DNA of 64,000 nt from Chloroflexota bacterium (GTDB taxonomy: Bacteria > Chloroflexota > Anaerolineae > SpSt-313). The position numbers and the translations under genes are program-made. How positions within the stretch are numbered: position 1 is the first letter of the stretch; each line of letters begins with the position of its first letter. Of the stretch, positions 6,517-63,473 are shown in pieces. Location: positions 1 through 64,000 of the forward strand of contig JAKPJZ010000119.1 in assembly GCA_029553955.1 (NCBI GenBank), written 5' to 3'. Under the pieces are notes generated by a model. It was given only the letters and a program-made list of their open reading frames with translations. It was not told where the DNA came from and ran no database searches.

Positions 6517-6612
6517 GAGGGGTTCTTGGTTGGCTGGCCCTGCTGGCCGCCCCTGGCGCGCCTGCGGGCGCGCCAGGGGCGGCCAGCAGGGCCAGCCAAC
6601 CAAGAACCCCTC
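6517..6612. repeat. Long perfect palindrome P2 (46-base arms, 4-base loop)
   Basis: Left arm 6517-6562, loop TGCG, right arm 6567-6612, no mismatch. This is the longest of the family and the only one with a loop. The outer end reads GAGGGGTTCTTGG. The right flank (6613-6665) holds the conserved flank A on the reverse strand (GCTTCGC and GCCCGG). The left flank (about 6445-6516) holds flank B, itself able to pair GCCGGG with CCCGGC. It lies inside the BREX operon between brxC and pglXI. Confidence 0.95.
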
Positions 6613-9498: not shown

Positions 9499-9835
9499 TC
9501 TCGGAGACCTGTCACAGCGATTTCCATGGCGGGTGGTCAGCGCCAGCTTTCTGGCAAAGACTCCGTCCAGTTCGCGCCACAGCCGATAGGCGATTCCGCC
9601 TCCTGCAGGGTGGGGCCCTCGCTACCCGTCCCCCGTCGCGGGGGAATTGGGGCACACGACTGCGCCCAGTGTGGCCAAGAAGCGGCAAACGAGCCGTGAG
9701 GGGTGACGACAGCCAGCCCAATTCCCCCGCGACGGGGGAACGGTAGGGGGGCCCTAGCCGCCGGCATGGACAGGCCCCTGGCGGAGTTTTCGCCAATCGA
9801 TACGCCGCCATGGGAATCGGTGTGTCAGGTCTGCA
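9499..9835. mobile_element. MITE-like inverted-repeat element, copy 1, in the expected brxHII slot
   Basis: The left end (about 9503-9533) and right end (about 9803-9833) are near-complementary: GACCTG, CACA, CGATT and CCATGGCGG repeat in inverse order. Inside, 9618-9760 is a second inverted repeat built on CCCCGTCGCGGGGGAATT, a family also present at 34691-34847. There is no coding frame for a transposase. A relative lies at 19492-19680 and a fragment at 42225-42330. The element fills the gap between pglXI and pglZ, and its right end supplies the AAGGAGA before pglZ. Confidence 0.75.
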
Positions 9836-12660: not shown

Positions 12661-12744
12661 GGATGCACCGCAGAGGCGCAGAGTGCGCGGAGGGGAGCAG
12701 AAAAGGGAGAACCTCTGCGCCCTCCGCGCCTCTGCGGTGCATCC
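12661..12744. repeat. GCAAAG/GCAGAG-type inverted repeat
   Basis: Arms of 19 bases pair perfectly (ATGCACCGCAGAGGCGC against its complement) around a purine-rich middle. It belongs to a family whose ends read CACCGCAAAGGCGCAAAG and which recurs at least nine times in this window. The stretch 12745-13040 shows no supported gene; a minus-strand patch at 12770-12895 faintly resembles a winged-helix fragment. Confidence 0.85.
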
Positions 12745-13100: not shown

Positions 13101-13178
13101 AGGGTTTTTGGAGGGTGTCTGGCGTCGTTGCCCGGCCCGCGGGCCGGGCAACGACGCCAGACACCCTCCAAAAACCCT
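13101..13178. repeat. Long perfect palindrome P3 (78 bp)
   Basis: Arms of 39 bases meet without a loop at 13139/13140 in CCCG|CGGG, no mismatch. The outer end reads AGGGTTTTTGG. Flank A is on the right in reverse (13179-13235) and flank B on the left (about 13040-13100), where CCGGG and CCCGG stretches can pair. It separates the BREX cluster from the next operon. Confidence 0.95.
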
Positions 13179-14640: not shown

Positions 14641-14755
14641 ACCGCAAAGACGCAAAGACGCCAAGACGGCGCTAAGGAACTGGACTGGTGGATCGTCCCG
14701 CCCTGCTCCTTTGCGTTTCCTTCGCGTTTCCTTTGCGCCTTTGCGCCTTTGCGGT
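14641..14755. repeat. CGCAAAG-type inverted repeat
   Basis: Starts directly after the HAD stop with ACCGCAAAGACGCAAAG and ends with CTTTGCGCCTTTGCGGT. The middle is not paired. Same family as 12661, 17103, 18563 and 27750. Confidence 0.85.
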
Positions 14756-16338: not shown

Positions 16339-17100
16339 ATGAGACTGACGATCTGCCACTTGTACCCCGATCAGATGAACATCTATGGCGATCGGGGGAA
16401 TATCATCGCGCTGAGCCGGCGGGCGGCGTGGGCCGGGCTGGAGGTGGCCGTGCGCCGGGTGGAGCTGGGCGAGCGGCCCGATTTCCGCACTTTCGACATC
16501 CTCTTTCTGGGCGGCGGGCAGGACCGGGAGCAGGCGCGGGTCGCGCGCGACCTTGCGGAGGTCAAGGGGCCGTCGCTGCGCGAGGCGGTGGAGGATGGGC
16601 TGGCGCTGTTGGCGGTGTGCGGCGGCTACCAGCTCTTGGGTCGTTCCTTCATAACCGCCTCGGGCGCGGTGCTGCCGGGCATCGAGCTGTTCGACGCCTC
16701 GACGGAGGCGGGGCGCACGCGCTGCATCGGCGACGTCATTGTGCGCTCGGATGTGGCCGGGGCGCCGCGCACGCTGGTGGGCTTTGAGAACCACAGCGGC
16801 AAGACCTACCTGGGCGCGCGCGCCGCGCCGCTGGGGCGGGTGCTGTTTGGCCACGGCAACAACGGCCAAGACGGCTCGGAGGGCGCAGTCTACAGGCATG
16901 CCTGCGGCACCTACCTGCACGGGTCGCTCTTGCCCAAGAACCCCTGGCTCACCGACCTGCTCATCCGCCGCGCCGTCGAGCGGCGCTACGGCCCGGCCGC
17001 CGCGCTCCCTCACGTCGATGACGAGGTCGAGATGCGGGCCCACGAGGCGGTCATTGCCCGCATCCGCGCGCGGGGCAAGCTCGGCAAAGGCGCGACATAG
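16339..17100 (+). CDS. gatD: Lipid II isoglutaminyl synthase, glutamine amidotransferase subunit GatD
   Basis: 253 residues. It is a CobB/CobQ-like class I amidotransferase: YPDQMNIYGDRGN at the N terminus is typical of GatD, the catalytic cysteine is Cys94 in LAVCGGYQLLG, and the catalytic histidine is near 194 in GTYLHGSLLP. It feeds ammonia from glutamine to MurT. The start at 16339 has only a weak ribosome-binding site, so translation may depend on murT. Confidence 0.92.
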   Translation: MRLTICHLYPDQMNIYGDRGNIIALSRRAAWAGLEVAVRRVELGERPDFRTFDILFLGGGQDREQARVARDLAEVKGPSLREAVEDGLALLAVCGGYQLLGRSFITASGAVLPGIELFDASTEAGRTRCIGDVIVRSDVAGAPRTLVGFENHSGKTYLGARAAPLGRVLFGHGNNGQDGSEGAVYRHACGTYLHGSLLPKNPWLTDLLIRRAVERRYGPAAALPHVDDEVEMRAHEAVIARIRARGKLGKGAT

Positions 17101-17102
17101 GG

Positions 17103-17270
17103 CGGGGTTCACCGCAAAGGCGCAAAGACGCAAAGGGGACGCAAAGATAAGGGAAAGCACTGATGCACCCCACCGGCGTGAGCACGTTGGCCCCAGCCCG
17201 CCTGGGCGCAGTTGACCTTCCCCTCCCTTCGCGTCCCCTTTGCGCCTTCGCGCCTTCGCGGTGAACCCCG
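17103..17270. repeat. CGCAAAG-type inverted repeat
   Basis: Left end CGGGGTTCACCGCAAAGGCG, right end its near-complement. A second half-element of the same family (CGCCAAGGCG to CGCCTTGGCG) follows at 17277-17363. Together they fill the gap between two convergent genes. Confidence 0.85.
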
Positions 17271-17374
17271 TCCTCCGCGCCAAGGCGGCGCGAAGGACTC
17301 GGACAGGTGGGGCGCCTCCCCTTTTCCCCCTTGGCGCTTCCTTTGCGTCTTTGCGCCTTGGCGGTGTAGCCCCG

Positions 17375-18538: not shown

Positions 18539-18562
18539 CTCCCACCTCCGAATGCGGGGCTC

Positions 18563-18698
18563 CACCGCAGAGGCGCGAAGGCGCCAAGGCAACGCCAAGG
18601 TTCAACTACAGGGCGATGGCTGCCGGCCACCCCTCCGAGTTGCTCCAAAGGTTCTTGCCCCTTGGCGTCGTCTTTGTGCCTTTGCGTCTTTGCGGTGA
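18563..18698. repeat. CGCAAAG-type inverted repeat
   Basis: ACCGCAGAGGCGCGAAGG at the left, CTTTGCGTCTTTGCGGT at the right, with an internal GCCAAGG/CCTTGGC pair. It lies between two co-directional minus-strand genes. Confidence 0.8.
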
Positions 18699-18708
18699 AG
18701 GCCCGTCC

Positions 18709-21708: not shown

Positions 21709-21786
21709 TGGGGTTTGGTTGGGCCGTCCTGTGCTGCTGGCCGCCCGCGGGCGGCCAGCAGCACAGGACGGCCCAACCAAACCCCA
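21709..21786. repeat. Long perfect palindrome P4 (78 bp)
   Basis: Arms of 39 bases meet without a loop at 21747/21748 in CCCG|CGGG, no mismatch. The outer end reads TGGGGTTTGG. Flank A is on the left (21655-21708; ACGCTCCGCA and CCCGGTGCAG). It lies in the gap between divergent genes, so it cannot be a simple terminator for either. Confidence 0.95.
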
Positions 21787-27749: not shown

Positions 27750-27822
27750 TTCACCGCAAAGGCGCAAAGAGGACGCAAAGGGAAGGGAGTTCTTCGCGTT
27801 TCCTTTGCGTCTTTGCGGTGAG
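27750..27822. repeat. CGCAAAG-type inverted repeat
   Basis: TTCACCGCAAAGGCGCAAAG left, CCTTTGCGTCTTTGCGGTGA right. It is the shortest copy of the family here. Confidence 0.85.
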
Positions 27823-30524: not shown

Positions 30525-30600
30525 GGGGGGTGATGATGGACCGGCGAGGTATGGCGGCCCCGCGGGGCCGCCATACCTCGCCGGTCCATCATCACCCCCC
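30525..30600. repeat. Long perfect palindrome P5 (76 bp)
   Basis: Arms of 38 bases meet without a loop at 30562/30563 in CCCCG|CGGGG, no mismatch. The outer end reads GGGGGGTGATGATGG. Flank A is on the left (30480-30524; CCGCTTCGTACGAG) and flank B on the right (30601-30665; GCCGGGGCCAGCGGAGC). Confidence 0.95.
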
Positions 30601-34690: not shown

Positions 34691-34847
34691 CAGCGCTTGG
34701 CCCCCCTACCGTTCCCCCGTCGCGGAGGAATGGGGTTGCGTCTCCGGGGTCTGCCGGCGTGAAACACGACGAATGGGCGGCGCTGCGCGTCGGAAGCCAA
34801 CCTAATTCCCCCGCGACGGGGGAACGGTAGGGGGGCCAAACGCTGCG
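34691..34847. repeat. CCCCGTCGCGGGGGAATT-type inverted repeat
   Basis: Left arm from CAGCGCTTGGCCCCCCTACC and right arm ending GGTAGGGGGGCCAAACGCTG are near-complementary over about 45 bases. A relative is nested in the element at 9499-9835. The surrounding 34505-34926 stretch contains no supported gene. Confidence 0.85.
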
Positions 34848-38779: not shown

Positions 38780-38857
38780 AGGGGTTTTGGGAGGCTGGCA
38801 CCGATGCCCTGCCCCCCGCGGGGGGCAGGGCATCGGTGCCAGCCTCCCAAAACCCCT
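38780..38857. repeat. Long perfect palindrome P6 (78 bp)
   Basis: Arms of 39 bases meet without a loop at 38818/38819 in CCCCG|CGGGG, no mismatch. The outer end reads AGGGGTTTTGGG. Flank A is on the left (38742-38779; AAGCCCGGTGCGGGCCCC). It lies 50 bases before the next gene. Confidence 0.95.
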
Positions 38858-49513: not shown

Positions 49514-49542
49514 TTGACAGCACGCGGCACCTGTGCTATTTT
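49514..49542 (+). promoter_or_regulatory. Promoter of the alaS leader
   Basis: TTGACA (49514-49519), 17 bases, TATTTT (49537-49542). Transcription would start just before the T-box stem I. Confidence 0.65.
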
Positions 49543-49549
49543 GCTCAGC

Positions 49550-49910
49550 AATTGAGAACGGTCATTGACGGGATCAAGTAGGTGCCGGCAGGGTGTGTGC
49601 AGAGAGCCGCGGGGCGGTGCGACGCGGCCACATAGCGGGCGCCGAAGCCTTCCCCGAGATGCAGGAAGAACGCCGCTTGCGGCCGGTAAAGCCTGCCGGG
49701 CCCTCCCGTTACAGAGGTGGCCTCTCGAGCCTGTGGGGCAGGCGTCCTCGCCTGCCCGTCCCCCAGTGAGAGTGGGCAGACAAGGATGCCTGCCCCACAG
49801 GCTCGCATCTAGGGAGGCAGCGAGGCGCCGGCCGGTGACGGCGGCGCGCAGCAAGGTGGTACCGCCCATCGCATGGGTCCTTGCCAGGAGGCAGGGGCTT
49901 TTTTATTTGT
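49550..49910 (+). ncRNA. T-box riboswitch of alaS, with inserted palindrome
   Basis: Stem I begins near ACGGGATCAAGTAGGTG and includes the conserved AGAGAGCC-type loop at about 49604. GAAGCCTTC near 49650 offers GCC (Ala) as specifier. The T-box AAGGTGGTACCGCC at 49853-49866 forms the antiterminator. The competing terminator pairs GTCCTTGCC (49877) with GGCAGGGGC (49890-49898), followed by a U-run. Uncharged tRNA-Ala would bind and let transcription reach alaS. Between the specifier and antiterminator parts lies an inverted repeat (49726-49805) not normal for T-boxes. Confidence 0.85.
49726..49805. repeat. Inverted repeat inside the T-box leader
   Basis: CGAGCCTGTGGGGCAGGC and its exact complement (49788-49805), 18-base arms, with a further inner GCCTGCCC/GGGCA pair. 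It separates the two functional halves of the riboswitch by about 80 bases. Confidence 0.85.
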
Positions 49911-49925
49911 AGGAGGAGTAATCTC

Positions 49926-51707
49926 ATGAAGCAATTGACCGGCCAGGAGCTGCGGCGTGCCTACATCGAGTTCTTCAAGGCGCGCGGCCACGCCGAGCTC
50001 GGCTCGGCGCCGCTGATCCCCGAGCACGACCCGACGGTGCTCTTTACCACGGCGGGGATGCACCCACTCGTGCCCTTCCTCGCGGGGCAGCCGCACCCGC
50101 AGGGCAGGCGCCTGACGAGCGTGCAAAAGTGCCTGCGCACCGACGACATCGACGAGGTGGGCGATACAACGCACCTGACCTTCTTTGAGATGCTGGGCAA
50201 CTGGTCGCTGGGCGACTATTTCAAGAAGGAAGCCATCACCTGGAGCTACGAGTTCCTGACCCAGGTGCTGGGCATCCCCGCCGAGCGGCTGCACGTGAGC
50301 TGCTTTGCGGGCGACGCGGATGCGCCGCGCGACGAGGAATCGGCGGCCATCTGGGAGTCTCTGGGCATCCCGCGCGAGCGCATCTACTTTTTCGGCAAGA
50401 AGCAGAACTGGTGGGGGCCAGCCGGGCAGACGGGCCCCTGCGGCCCCGATACCGAAATGTTCTACTTTACCGGCGAGCCGTGCGGCGAGGGCCGTGGCGA
50501 GGACTGTGACCCCTCGTGCGACTGCGGGCGCTATGTCGAGGTGTGGAACGACGTCTTTATGCAATACAACAAGACGGCGGCGGGCACCTACGAGCCGCTG
50601 GCGCAGCGCAATGTGGATACGGGCATGGGGCTCGAGCGCACCGTGGCCGTGCTGCACGGCTACGACGACGTCTTCCGCACCGAGCTTTTTGCGTCGATCA
50701 TGGAGCGGCTGCAGGCGCTCTCGGGCCGCGCCTACGAGGGCGAGAGCCTGCGCGCCATGCGCATCGTGGCCGACCACATCCGCGCCTCGACCTTCCTGAT
50801 GGCCGATGGCGTGTTGCCCTCGAATGTGGAGCAGGGCTACATCCTGCGCCGGCTGCTGCGGCGGGCGATGCGCTACGCGCGCATGCTGGGCATCGAGGGC
50901 TCGGTGCTGCCCGACCTGGCCATGGTAGTGGTGCAGCACTATGCGCTGGCCTACCCCGAGTTGGCCGAAAAGCGCGAGCTGATCGCCCACGAGATCGCTC
51001 TCGAGGAGGGGCGCTTCCTGCAGGCGTTGCAGCGGGGCGAGCGCGAGTTCGAGCGCCTGGTGGCCCGCCTGCAGGAGGGGCAGATCAGCGGCCGTGATGC
51101 CTTTTACCTGTACGAGACCTATGGCTTCCCGCTGGAGCTGACCGCCGAGATGGCGCGCGAGCGAGGCATCGCGGTCGACGAGGCCGGCTTCCAGGAGGCG
51201 TACGCCAGGCACCAGCAGATGTCGCGGGCGGGCGCCGAGCTCAAGTTCGCCGGCGGCCTGGCCGACCACAGCGAGGCCACGACCAGGCTGCACACGGCCA
51301 CGCACCTGCTGCACGCGGCGCTGCGCCTCGTGTTGGGCGAGCATGTGCGCCAGGCCGGCTCGAACATCACCGTCGACCGGCTGCGCTTTGACTTTGCCCA
51401 CCCCGAAAAACTGACCGACGAGCAGTTGCAGCGGGTGGAGGACCTGGTGAACGAGGCCATCGCCGCCGACTATCCGGTGTGCGTAGACCAGATGAGCCTG
51501 GAGGAAGCGCAGGCCAGCGGCGCCCTGGCGTTCTTTGGCGAACGCTATGGCGACCGGGTCAACGTGTACTCCATCGGCGAGTTCTCGAAGGAGGTCTGCG
51601 GCGGCCCGCACGTCGAGCACACCGGGCAACTCGGCCATTTCAAGATCCAGAAGCAGGAGGCGGTGGGCCGCGGCCTGCGGCGCATTCGTGCCGTGCTCGA
51701 GGCGTGA
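49926..51707 (+). CDS. alaS: Alanyl-tRNA synthetase, short form
   Basis: 593 residues. The class II catalytic core is complete: FFKARGHAELGSAPLIPEHDPT, motif 2 region TFFEMLGNWSLGDYFK near 79-94 and a TGMGLERTVAVL motif 3 region near 236. The editing domain has HTATHLLH near 456 and CGGPHVEH near 558. The protein then stops; the DHHA1/C-Ala domain present in most bacterial AlaRS (about 870 residues) is missing and is not encoded directly downstream. It charges tRNA-Ala. Expression is controlled by the T-box. ATG 49926 follows GGAGGAG. Confidence 0.92.
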   Translation: MKQLTGQELRRAYIEFFKARGHAELGSAPLIPEHDPTVLFTTAGMHPLVPFLAGQPHPQGRRLTSVQKCLRTDDIDEVGDTTHLTFFEMLGNWSLGDYFKKEAITWSYEFLTQVLGIPAERLHVSCFAGDADAPRDEESAAIWESLGIPRERIYFFGKKQNWWGPAGQTGPCGPDTEMFYFTGEPCGEGRGEDCDPSCDCGRYVEVWNDVFMQYNKTAAGTYEPLAQRNVDTGMGLERTVAVLHGYDDVFRTELFASIMERLQALSGRAYEGESLRAMRIVADHIRASTFLMADGVLPSNVEQGYILRRLLRRAMRYARMLGIEGSVLPDLAMVVVQHYALAYPELAEKRELIAHEIALEEGRFLQALQRGEREFERLVARLQEGQISGRDAFYLYETYGFPLELTAEMARERGIAVDEAGFQEAYARHQQMSRAGAELKFAGGLADHSEATTRLHTATHLLHAALRLVLGEHVRQAGSNITVDRLRFDFAHPEKLTDEQLQRVEDLVNEAIAADYPVCVDQMSLEEAQASGALAFFGERYGDRVNVYSIGEFSKEVCGGPHVEHTGQLGHFKIQKQEAVGRGLRRIRAVLEA

Positions 51708-57036: not shown

Positions 57037-57118
57037 AAGGGTTTGGCGGGCAGGAAGCGCCTGGCCTGGCCGGCCCGCGGGCCGGCCAGGCCAGGCGCTT
57101 CCTGCCCGCCAAACCCTT
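57037..57118. repeat. Long perfect palindrome P7 (82 bp)
   Basis: Arms of 41 bases meet without a loop at 57077/57078 in CCCG|CGGG, no mismatch. The outer end reads AAGGGTTTGGCGG. Flank A is on the right in reverse (57119-57165; GCGCGAAGCATG) and flank B on the left (56975-57036; GCCGGGCCTAGCGCTCCGCC). Confidence 0.95.
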
Positions 57119-60563: not shown

Positions 60564-63390
60564 GCTGCGCATCGAAGGGTTCGGCCGTCTGGCGAACCTG
60601 TCCCTTCGCTTCGCCCCGGGCCTGAACCTCGTCTATGGACCCAATGAAGCGGGCAAATCGACCCTGCTGGAGGCCCTGCTGGCCACGCTCTACGGCTTTG
60701 TCGATGAGGGCGCAGCCGCAGCCTACAGGCCGAGCAGCGGGGCGGGGGTGTACGCGGCGTCGTTGACCTATGCGCTCGACGCCGGCGCAGCCTACCGGGT
60801 GACGCGGCGCTTCCTGCCCCGGGCCGAGGCGTCGCTGCACTCGTACCCTGCCGGCGAAGACTGCTCGGCCCTGCTCACGGGCCGGCGCTCCCTGGCCGAG
60901 GCGCATTGGGGGCTCGGGCGCGAGGGCTTTGAGGGCCTCTGTGTCGCGCGCCAGGGAGGGCCGCTGGCGCTGCAGGCCTCGGCGGCGCTGGCCGGCGCGC
61001 TGCGACAGCGACTGGCCACGGCCGCACCCGACGCAGCCGTATCGCGGGCGACAGGGCTCTTGGAGACGGCGCTGAAGGAGCGCGTGGGCGCGCCCCACAG
61101 CCGCTCCCGACCCCTGTCGCAGGCGTTGGCCAGGCTGGCACGCCTGGAGGACGAGCGGCAGCGCGCACTGCAATTGCGCCGCGACCTCGTGCCGCGCCTG
61201 ACGGCCGTGCGTGTTGCGGCCGAGCGGCTCGAGGCGCTGGATGGGCGGCGGGCCGCGCTGCTCACGCGCCAGGCCGAGGCGGCCGCGCGCGCCGCACAGG
61301 TGTCTCCACCGGAGGGCGCCGCGGTGAGCGCTGAGGTGCAGCGCTGCGAGGCGGAGGTGGCGCGCTGGCAGGCCTGGGCGGGCTTCCCGGTGGTCCTGCG
61401 CGACACGCTGCTGCGGCTCAGCGCGCAGCACACGCGCTTGCAGGAAGACTGCGCGCTGGCCGAGCGCCGTGGCCGGCGCGCCCAGGAGGCCCTGGCCCAG
61501 CTAGAGGCGCAGGAGGCCACCCTGCAAGAGCGCCTCGCACCACCGCCGGCGACGGGGCTGGCCCCGGCTGCCGAGTTTGCCCGCATCCAGGCACTGGCCA
61601 GCGAGTGGCGCATGGCCAGCGAGCTCGAGTGGTCGGCCAACGAGCGTTACCGCACAGCCCAGCCGGCGCTGGAGGCGCTGCTCCAGCGCCTCGCCGAGGA
61701 AGGCAAGGAGGTGGAGCCGCTGTTGCCGGCCGGCCCCGCCGGGCTGACGCTGGTGCAGGAGCGGCTGAAGAAGGCCCGCGAACGCCTGGCGCAGGCCAAG
61801 GGCGCGCTGGCGCAGGCCACCGCGGCCTGGGCGCGCCTGGGCATGGAGGAGGCCGAGTTCCAGCGGCTGGAGCACGCCGTGCGCGGTTTCCGCAGCAACG
61901 ACCGGCCCGAGCCCCGGCCCGAACCCCGCCAGGGCCGCCGTTGGCTCTCGGCGCTCTTGGGCCGCGGCGAGCCCGAAGAGCAGGCGCCGCCGGGGCTGGC
62001 GTCGTATGGCGAGGTCCAGCCAGTCTACGCCGAGATGGCGCGCTGCCGCGACGAGGCCGAGGCGGCGCAACGCGCGCTGAGCGATATCGAGGCGGCGACC
62101 CTCTGGCAGTTGGGCCGGCTGCTCGGCGGCACGCTCGAGGAGGCTGCCTTTGAGCAACTGCGCACCAGGCTCGAGCGCCACCTCCGCGCCCAGACCGAGC
62201 TCGAGCAGCAACGGATCACCGTCTCCGGCCTGCGCTCCGAGCTCGACCAGGCGCGCCAGCGGCGCGAGAAGGCGCAGACGGCGCTGCAGATCGAGCTGGG
62301 CCGGCTGGGCTTTACGGCGACCGAGCTACACAAGGCGCTGGCCGACTATGTGCGGCAGCACGAACAGCAAAAGCCGGCCAGCACGGAGCGTGTGGGAGGG
62401 GAACAGTCACACCGCCGCGCCGAGACGGAGCTGGAGCTGCTGCGCGCCCGCGCCGAGGCGCAGCGCATCGAGCTGGAGCGCTGGCAGGAGAAACAGGCCG
62501 CCCTGAGCGAGATCGACACCCAGCTCACGGCGCTCCTCACCCAGGCCGGCATCAGCAGCAACAGCAGCCTGGAGCGGGCGCTGGAGGCCTTTGACGAGGG
62601 CGTGGCGAACTACCGGCGCTGGGAGCAGGCCAAGACGACGCTCGACGCGGCCATGCGCTATCAACGGACCCTGTTCGAGGCCCGCCCACGCGCGCGCCGC
62701 GGTCACGGCGATGCGGCCGCGGCCGGCACCGAGGTGGCCGCCTGCGCCGCCGAGCTGGCGCACTTGGACGAGGAGCGGGCGCAGGCACAGGAGGATCACA
62801 GCCGGCTCGAGGCCGAGGTGCAGCAGGCCATGGTCGGCGTGCGCCATCTGGCCGAGATCGACGAAGAGATCGCGCTCGAACAGGGCAACGTGCGCCGGCT
62901 GGAGGAGCTCCGCAGCGCCCTCGAGCTGGCACGCGACGAGTTGGTCGGGGCCGGGCGCGACTTTCAGCAGCAGTTCACGCCACGGCTCGAGGCGCTCGTG
63001 CGGGAGGGGCTCAAACAGGTCACGGCCGACCGCTACGTGGAGGCCGTCGTCGACGAGGCCAACCTGGCGCTGACGGTACACGCGCCGGGGCTGGGTGGCC
63101 TGGTGCCGCCGGCCTGCTTGGGCGCGGCCACGCGCGACCTGGCCCACCTGCTGCTGCGCGCCGCGCTCGTGCGACTGATGGGCCACTGCGGCGAAAAGCT
63201 GCCCCTGCTGCTCGACGAGCCGCTCGCCCAATGCGACGCCGAGCACCAAGAGCGCGCGCTCGGCTTCCTGGCGCACGTGGCCGAGGAGGCGCAGGTCGTG
63301 CTCTTTACCGCCGACGAGCGGGTCAAGGCACGCTTTGAGCAAGCGTCCAAGTCGCCACGCCACCAGTTGCACCTGCTCAACGTAGCCTGA
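60550..63390 (+). CDS. SbcC/YhaN-like AAA ATPase
   Basis: 946 residues. Walker A VYGPNEAGKSTLLEALL is near 32-48, right after the RecF/SMC-type IEGFGRLANLSLRF start. Most of the middle is coiled coil rich in Ala, Glu, Arg and Leu, interrupted near 450-500. The C-terminal ATPase half holds the ABC signature region (LGAATRDLAHLLLRAALV near 857) and Walker B LPLLLDEPLAQCD near 882-894. Together with the phosphoesterase it should form an SbcCD/Mre11-Rad50-like complex. It overlaps the upstream gene by 14 bases. Its stop codon touches palindrome P8. Confidence 0.88.
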   Translation: MRVAELRIEGFGRLANLSLRFAPGLNLVYGPNEAGKSTLLEALLATLYGFVDEGAAAAYRPSSGAGVYAASLTYALDAGAAYRVTRRFLPRAEASLHSYPAGEDCSALLTGRRSLAEAHWGLGREGFEGLCVARQGGPLALQASAALAGALRQRLATAAPDAAVSRATGLLETALKERVGAPHSRSRPLSQALARLARLEDERQRALQLRRDLVPRLTAVRVAAERLEALDGRRAALLTRQAEAAARAAQVSPPEGAAVSAEVQRCEAEVARWQAWAGFPVVLRDTLLRLSAQHTRLQEDCALAERRGRRAQEALAQLEAQEATLQERLAPPPATGLAPAAEFARIQALASEWRMASELEWSANERYRTAQPALEALLQRLAEEGKEVEPLLPAGPAGLTLVQERLKKARERLAQAKGALAQATAAWARLGMEEAEFQRLEHAVRGFRSNDRPEPRPEPRQGRRWLSALLGRGEPEEQAPPGLASYGEVQPVYAEMARCRDEAEAAQRALSDIEAATLWQLGRLLGGTLEEAAFEQLRTRLERHLRAQTELEQQRITVSGLRSELDQARQRREKAQTALQIELGRLGFTATELHKALADYVRQHEQQKPASTERVGGEQSHRRAETELELLRARAEAQRIELERWQEKQAALSEIDTQLTALLTQAGISSNSSLERALEAFDEGVANYRRWEQAKTTLDAAMRYQRTLFEARPRARRGHGDAAAAGTEVAACAAELAHLDEERAQAQEDHSRLEAEVQQAMVGVRHLAEIDEEIALEQGNVRRLEELRSALELARDELVGAGRDFQQQFTPRLEALVREGLKQVTADRYVEAVVDEANLALTVHAPGLGGLVPPACLGAATRDLAHLLLRAALVRLMGHCGEKLPLLLDEPLAQCDAEHQERALGFLAHVAEEAQVVLFTADERVKARFEQASKSPRHQLHLLNVA

Positions 63391-63473
63391 CTGAAAAGGG
63401 GGGTGTGGACGGTTCTGCCCCGGCCCCGCCGCGGCGGGGCCGGGGCAGAACCGTCCACACCCCCCTTTTCAGT
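63390..63473. repeat. Long perfect palindrome P8 (84 bp)
   Basis: Arms of 42 bases meet without a loop at 63431/63432, no mismatch. The outer end reads ACTGAAAAGGGGGG, with the last base of the sbcC-like stop codon at one tip and the stop of the convergent gene inside the other. Unlike the other copies it has no flank A or B. Here a role as two-way terminator is plausible. Confidence 0.95.

Follow-up and report, generated by a model that had tools for sequence, protein, structure and literature searches.

REP sequences of the GTAG type are outlined by Di Nocera et al. (2013, PMC3733652) as short hairpins with a GTRG tag at the foot and a covarying stem, of which 24 families have been published, and head-to-head doublets of such REPs are described under the name of REPINs by Bertels and Rainey (2011, PMC3116915). 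In the account given by Croucher et al. (2011, PMC3049150), a BOX element lies between two complete T-boxes ahead of the pneumococcal trp operon, and these switches apparently still function. Here we analyzed the alaS leader in a 64-kb window (the whole stretch of DNA under study), for which an earlier note had proposed that a palindrome lies within a T-box riboswitch. The results suggest that a mobile-type palindrome has been inserted upstream of an essential gene, into a part of the leader whose fold can absorb it; the corresponding site is empty in relatives.

The alaS leader as a T-box

The leader ahead of alaS reads as an ordinary transcriptional T-box that is predicted to sense tRNA-Ala. 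Its parts are given below in window coordinates. For comparison, we used the orthologous leaders of G001 and G002, which belong to the same family as the source genome but to another genus and are the only two same-family genomes compared; G040 is a more distant genome of the same class.

49514–49542, plus strand: promoter-like site TTGACA-17-TATTTT with TG ahead of the second hexamer (consensus scan, 1 found versus 0.0 expected in shuffles)
49556–49711, plus strand: 5' part of the T-box with stem I, stem II region and stem III, ending in CCGTTA (49706–49711); from the RF00230 match and the alignment with the G001 and G002 orthologues
49647–49649, plus strand: putative specifier codon GCC (Ala), which the Rfam alignment places behind the conserved GAA
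49720–49818, plus strand: native linker hairpin with the insert in its loop, arms GCCTCTC (49720–49726) and GGGAGGC (49812–49818); from the 17-nt hairpin of G001 and G002 and the linker fold
49726–49805, plus strand: insert, a head-to-head REP doublet with 32-nt arms, from an inverted-repeat search; absent in G001, G002 and G040; boundaries uncertain by a few bases
49733–49756, plus strand: REP unit 1, GTGG tag and hairpin, exact pattern match
49775–49798, minus strand: REP unit 2, inverted, GTGG tag and hairpin, one mismatch to the 25-nt pattern (49774–49798)
49851–49884, plus strand: antiterminator with the T-box bulge TGGTACC, folding alone at −13.9 kcal/mol; partial RF00230 match
49875–49906, plus strand: intrinsic terminator (stem 49875–49900) with U run, −17.0 kcal/mol
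49926–51707, plus strand: alaS, a short alanyl-tRNA synthetase, the single alaS match in the source genome

At a relaxed threshold, the Rfam model RF00230 matched positions 49556–49725 (50.5 bits, E 3.3e-10) and, in a second partial match, positions 49853–49882 (16.2 bits, E 0.23). This covariance-model check bears out the T-box claimed in the earlier note, though at a score under the gathering score of 93, below which the leader also fell in the Rfam scan of the whole window. The low score is not a sign of decay, since the insert-free orthologues in G001 and G002 reached only 52.1 and 38.4 bits. The gathering score was likewise missed by seven of the eight T-boxes of the source genome. No REP insert in another kind of structured RNA came to light either: among 34 repeat-bearing loci and six T-box loci of this genome the sole Rfam match at the gathering threshold was the T-box at L250. 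Folding of the alaS leader was more stable than that of all 100 shuffled sequences (z −4.49). The antiterminator (49851–49884) and the terminator stem (49875–49900) have the stretch CCTTGC in common and are mutually exclusive, which confirms the switch that had been described here. The proposed Ala specifier was upheld as well: GCC follows GAA, is conserved in G001 and G002, and probably is the specifier codon, as it fits the synthetase encoded downstream.

The AlaRS itself is short, with ∼594 residues counted from the ATG at the start of the window frame 49926–51707. G040 has an alaS match in both a 588-residue and a 930-residue frame. Among the best 80 of 590 matches, the nearest named relatives are distant short AlaRS proteins of Woesearchaeota, Patescibacteria, Clostridia and Spirochaetes.

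An inverted repeat in the linker hairpin

The 80-base inverted repeat with 18-base perfect arms of the earlier note was found at 49726–49805. Its arms (49726–49757 and 49774–49805) are 32 nt each, 91% complementary and separated by 16 nt, and the outer 18 nt pair perfectly; it measures 80 nt as an inverted repeat and 82 nt in the alignment with G001 and G002. The position claimed for it, between the specifier and antiterminator parts, was correct and can be narrowed down to the linker that leads from stem III to the antiterminator.

The alaS genes of G001 and G002 are 86 and 87% identical to that of the source genome over the first 186 residues, and their leaders align closely with the source leader on both sides of the insertion site while being ∼13 nt longer in the stem II region. 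At the insertion site G002 has a 17-nt hairpin, GCCTCTC-GAT-GAGAGGC, and G001 has the same hairpin with one change. The source leader has the same two hairpin arms with one G-U pair, spanning 99 nt. The T-box preceding alaS in G040 likewise lacks the insert. The repeat is thus missing from all three relatives in which a T-box was read before alaS, so that a native part of the leader, which the earlier note had left as an alternative, is ruled out and the 80-nt inverted repeat appears to be foreign to the alaS leader. The source assembly has a completeness of 91.8% and a contamination of 8.15%; an assembly error at the repeat is argued against by the empty site in G001 and G002, where the flanks align on both sides.

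Two other identities of the insert were considered. An extra terminator is ruled out by the lack of a U run after the repeat, and matches of the insert to microRNA families in Rfam are hairpin look-alikes that fall far under the gathering scores of those families.

Identity of the repeat

The insert is a mobile-type repeat, a REP doublet in which two copies of a dispersed palindrome with a GTRG tag stand head to head. The unit GTGGGGCAGGCGTCCTCGCCTGCC recurs in the source genome with 50 matches at up to two mismatches to the 25-nt pattern, while the reversed pattern had none. A wider 24-nt pattern, at up to one mismatch, gave 173 matches in the source genome; among eight other genomes it was absent from G001, G002, G004, G040, G008, G011 and G029 and found once in G003. 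The reversed 24-nt control gave one or two matches in five of those eight genomes and none in the source genome.

We also searched for the hairpin without its tag, which gave 128 places, and read 99 sites from the loci around 100 of these 128 and from the window. At 87 of these 99 sites the hairpin was preceded by GTGG (54) or GTAG (33). The stem positions that vary do so mostly as pairs: the first is G-C at 60 sites, A-T at 31, T-A at two, G-T at five and A-C at one, while the second, where the pattern allowed only R and Y, is G-C at 65, A-T at 26, G-T at four and A-C at four. When neighboring units were counted at up to two mismatches over all loci retrieved, 50 pairs stood head to head (34 of them with a spacer of 22–24 nt), 28 tail to tail (27 of them 5–6 nt apart) and 20 head to tail. 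The spacer between the two units of the alaS insert is 18 nt.

As in GTAG-type REPs, then, a tag stands at the foot of the hairpin (GTGG in both units of the insert), the copies are numerous and dispersed, and the stem changes are paired; as in REPINs, two inverted REPs and a spacer form one hairpin. Three Y1 transposase genes (Y1_Tnp) of the RAYT type are present in the source genome. None of the three adjoins the unit of the alaS insert, and a cognate RAYT may be missing from the 91.8% complete assembly. We therefore call the insert REPIN-like rather than a REPIN. Each of the three Y1 transposase genes (at L010, L011 and L012) is flanked by arrays of its own GTAG-tagged palindrome, the sequence of which differs from that of the GTGGGGCAGGCGTCCTCGCCTGCC unit.

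Inverted repeats are generally abundant in the source genome: within the 64-kb window, exact 13-nt inverted pairs were found at 23 places, compared to one after shuffling, and the density of such pairs was 0.36 per kb versus 0.09 per kb in loci of other genomes. Eight perfect palindromes, at 1381–1456, 6517–6612, 13101–13178, 21709–21786, 30525–30600, 38780–38857, 57037–57118 and 63390–63473, have arms of 38–46 nt with a center of 0–4 nt or overlapping arms and lie roughly 5–18 kb apart. Their sequences differ and their plan is similar, often with GGGG on the outside and CCCG-CGGG in the middle; another one lies in L011. Two further families of inverted repeats in the window, of the CCGTCGCGG..GGAAT and ACCGCAAAGGCGC types, occupy positions 9614–9754, 34691–34845, 12661–12744, 14641–14755, 17099–17274, 18555–18705 and 27751–27821.

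The location of the doublet within a hairpin raises the question of its entry route. REP doublets of this family might be aimed at hairpin loops, that is, at single-stranded palindromic targets of which the T-box linker hairpin would be one, and this would be compatible with an insert that is tolerated. Insertion within palindromes is ascribed to some REP families in the portion of Di Nocera et al. that concerns them (PMC3733652), and the flanks of the alaS insert are the most complementary among the isolated doublets tested (−37.0 kcal/mol). Over nine isolated doublets, however, native flanks paired with a mean of −28.5 kcal/mol and swapped flanks with −28.1 kcal/mol, the native combination being the best in only one of nine cases. 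Flank pairing therefore gives no support for a general targeting of palindromes by this repeat, and we consider such targeting decidedly unlikely.

Predicted folding with and without the insert

The insert is predicted to fold on itself, with 64.5 of its 65.6 expected paired nucleotides paired internally. When the linker was folded alone, six of the seven pairs of the native hairpin had a pairing probability of at least 0.95, the insert lengthened this hairpin, and the next hairpin of the linker was unchanged. Both results agree with the expectation in the earlier note of a self-folding insert that forms an extra stem.

The fold from stem I through the antiterminator gave a different picture. 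With the insert, the native hairpin and the lower helix of the antiterminator each had a probability of 0.004, compared to 0.57 and 0.42, respectively, when the flanks were joined without it; such folds ignore the tRNA and the co-transcriptional order, and the values are nevertheless unfavorable to an intact switch. They are what would be expected if the insert had broken the switch, leaving alaS without a response to tRNA-Ala and expressed by leaky readthrough. Against this stand the survival of the native hairpin in the linker fold and the recognizable T-box parts and terminator, which are intact and unmutated around the insert. In addition, alaS is present in a single copy, and a dead switch before an intact terminator should be selected against. 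Since T-box folding is co-transcriptional and assisted by tRNA, we gave more weight to the linker fold, which is a judgement, and we regard a broken switch as highly improbable.

Very probably, the insert is instead a tolerated REP doublet in the loop of the linker hairpin of the alaS T-box, with a switch that presumably still works. On this explanation, a mobile-type REP doublet of 80 nt would have entered the loop of a small native linker hairpin in the source lineage, and the native hairpin would persist, merely lengthened by the insert, as in the predicted linker fold. We infer that the alaS switch still works for two reasons: the tRNA would be held at two other places, by the specifier and the antiterminator, so that the linker hairpin can vary freely; and alaS, an essential gene in a single copy, lies behind an intact terminator and thus depends on antitermination.

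Inserts in the other T-boxes of the genome

To see the alaS insert in context, the eight T-boxes of the source genome were aligned with those of G001 and G002. Genome-specific inserts of 33–159 nt were present in six of the eight:

alaS T-box: 82 nt in the linker that follows stem III
thrS T-box (L252): 67 nt in the stem II region
valS T-box (L253): about 40 nt in the stem II region
ileS T-box (L254): about 50 nt in the stem II region and a further 33 nt at the apex of stem I; alignment of the linker is loose
leuS T-box (L256): 33 nt in the stem II region
pheS T-box (L257): 159 nt in the stem II region

The trpS and serS T-boxes have no insert of 30 nt or more relative to G001 and G002. Conversely, the largest single extra stretch in the T-boxes of G001 or G002 relative to the source genome is 18 nt. 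Similar sequences elsewhere in 428 kb of the source genome (overlaps included) were found for six of the seven inserts, the exception being that in stem I of ileS; among 215 kb of other genomes, a similar sequence was found for the valS insert only, in G040. None of the inserts in the source-genome T-boxes lies in a specifier loop, a T-box bulge or a terminator. The simplest reading of these recurrent inserts is that insertion pressure is heavy and that only inserts in tolerant parts of the RNA survive.

This distribution bears on whether the alaS insert has been taken into use, for instance as a long hairpin that slows or paces transcription after tRNA has bound and before the decision or as an RNase site that alters the stability of the alaS mRNA. 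The insert does place a further 80 nt, with a very stable stem, between the specifier and the point of decision, and a role of REPs as RNA elements is assumed for many species in PMC3733652. However, the insert is missing from relatives with the same leader, and comparable inserts of unrelated sequence elsewhere in other T-boxes (stem II region) point to tolerance rather than a shared function. We consider such a use quite improbable. Tolerance of the doublet, with many insertions of which only those in tolerant loops would survive, would cover the five other T-boxes as well. Natural insertion variants of this kind may also serve as a map of the tolerant parts of the T-box.

In the linker of the trpS T-box (L251, G000:C82:4624-4943), a second hairpin resembling a terminator, together with a U run, precedes the antiterminator. 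The same second hairpin with U run is present in its counterparts in G001 and G002 (L259 and L262).

Other copies in coding genes

Many REP units lie in long open frames (among 40 of the 160 sites). Nine unit-bearing reading frames were compared with Pfam, and eight of them had domains. A unit lies in frame in polA (DNA polymerase I, L193), where it separates the 5'-3' exonuclease domain from the polymerase domain; in topA (topoisomerase I, L008), within the Topoisom_bac match; between two domains of a GH65 enzyme (L183); and ahead of the domain of an MFS transporter (L196). Units are also in frame in dnaE (DNA polymerase III alpha, L003) and in an alpha-2-macroglobulin gene (L007). Copies kept in frame within essential genes are consistent with tolerance of the alaS insert.

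A tRNA-Ala gene within the leuS T-box

In the leuS T-box (L256, G000:C261:21798-22154), stem III and the antiterminator have a complete tRNA-Ala(GGC) gene between them, and a tRNA-Ala(CGC) gene lies just upstream. The nested tRNA-Ala(GGC) is also found in the leuS T-box linkers of G001 and G002 (L263 and L266), and further loci are L274–L293. A pattern of the tRNA 3' half followed by the T-box motif occurred in 36 of 396 genomes of the class, the source genome included, while the reversed control gave none. ARAGORN called Ala(GGC) in all 20 further loci and the upstream Ala(CGC) in 16 of them. In each of the 18 loci scanned, one whole-model T-box match spans the tRNA at a score that misses the gathering score. 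A LeuRS motif lies within 900 nt downstream in nine of the 20 loci and in all three family members, and the GAA-CTC (Leu) sequence is present in 17 of the 20 and, again, in all three family members.

By DNA similarity, no other Ala(GGC) tRNA was found in the source genome. The nested tRNA is the only Ala(GGC) found, and its anticodon fits the alaS specifier, so that the alaS switch might obtain its ligand from transcription through the leuS switch. A broader proposal includes this supply of the ligand and treats T-boxes as modular: their stem II region and the linker that follows stem III would be sockets for whole foreign RNAs, namely REP doublets and other palindromes in the source genome and, at leuS in many genomes of the class, a complete tRNA-Ala(GGC) gene. 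We regard this proposal as unlikely. No description of a tRNA nested in a leuS T-box was recognized in the literature searched, and this side result may outweigh the finding on the alaS insert.

Comparison with known systems

T-boxes, REPs, REPINs and a repeat between two T-boxes are all known. The literature searched gave no case of a repeat or REPIN within the fold of one T-box, which is weak evidence as most subscription journals lie outside its coverage. With the alaS-type T-box of RF00230, the source leader shares stem I with the specifier, stem III, bulge, antiterminator and a terminator before an aminoacyl-tRNA synthetase gene; it differs in having an 80-nt dispersed repeat in its linker hairpin, and its score lies below the gathering score, as do those of its insert-free orthologues. 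With GTAG-type REPs and REPINs, as far as these are characterized in the relevant parts of PMC3733652 and PMC3116915, the source repeat shares the tag, the covarying stem, doublets with a spacer of ∼20 nt, the high copy number and the occurrence of some copies within genes. It differs in that the doublet lies inside a riboswitch fold and in that no cognate RAYT was found beside the unit.

The pneumococcal BOX case, in the outline given in PMC3049150, is similar in that a T-box leader region contains a dispersed repeat of palindromic type. There, however, the repeat stands between two T-boxes, whereas the source insert lies inside one T-box, in the loop of a hairpin. Rickettsia palindromic elements, as summarized in PMC10969869 and PMC3733652, are tolerated in frame in coding genes, as are other copies of the unit in the source genome; they are longer and of other sequence, and the parallel is with these coding copies and not with the alaS copy. 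The in-frame copies also resemble the intragenic REPs noted in PMC3733652. The alaS leader would thus extend a REP-like habit of surviving inside proteins to a structured regulatory RNA.
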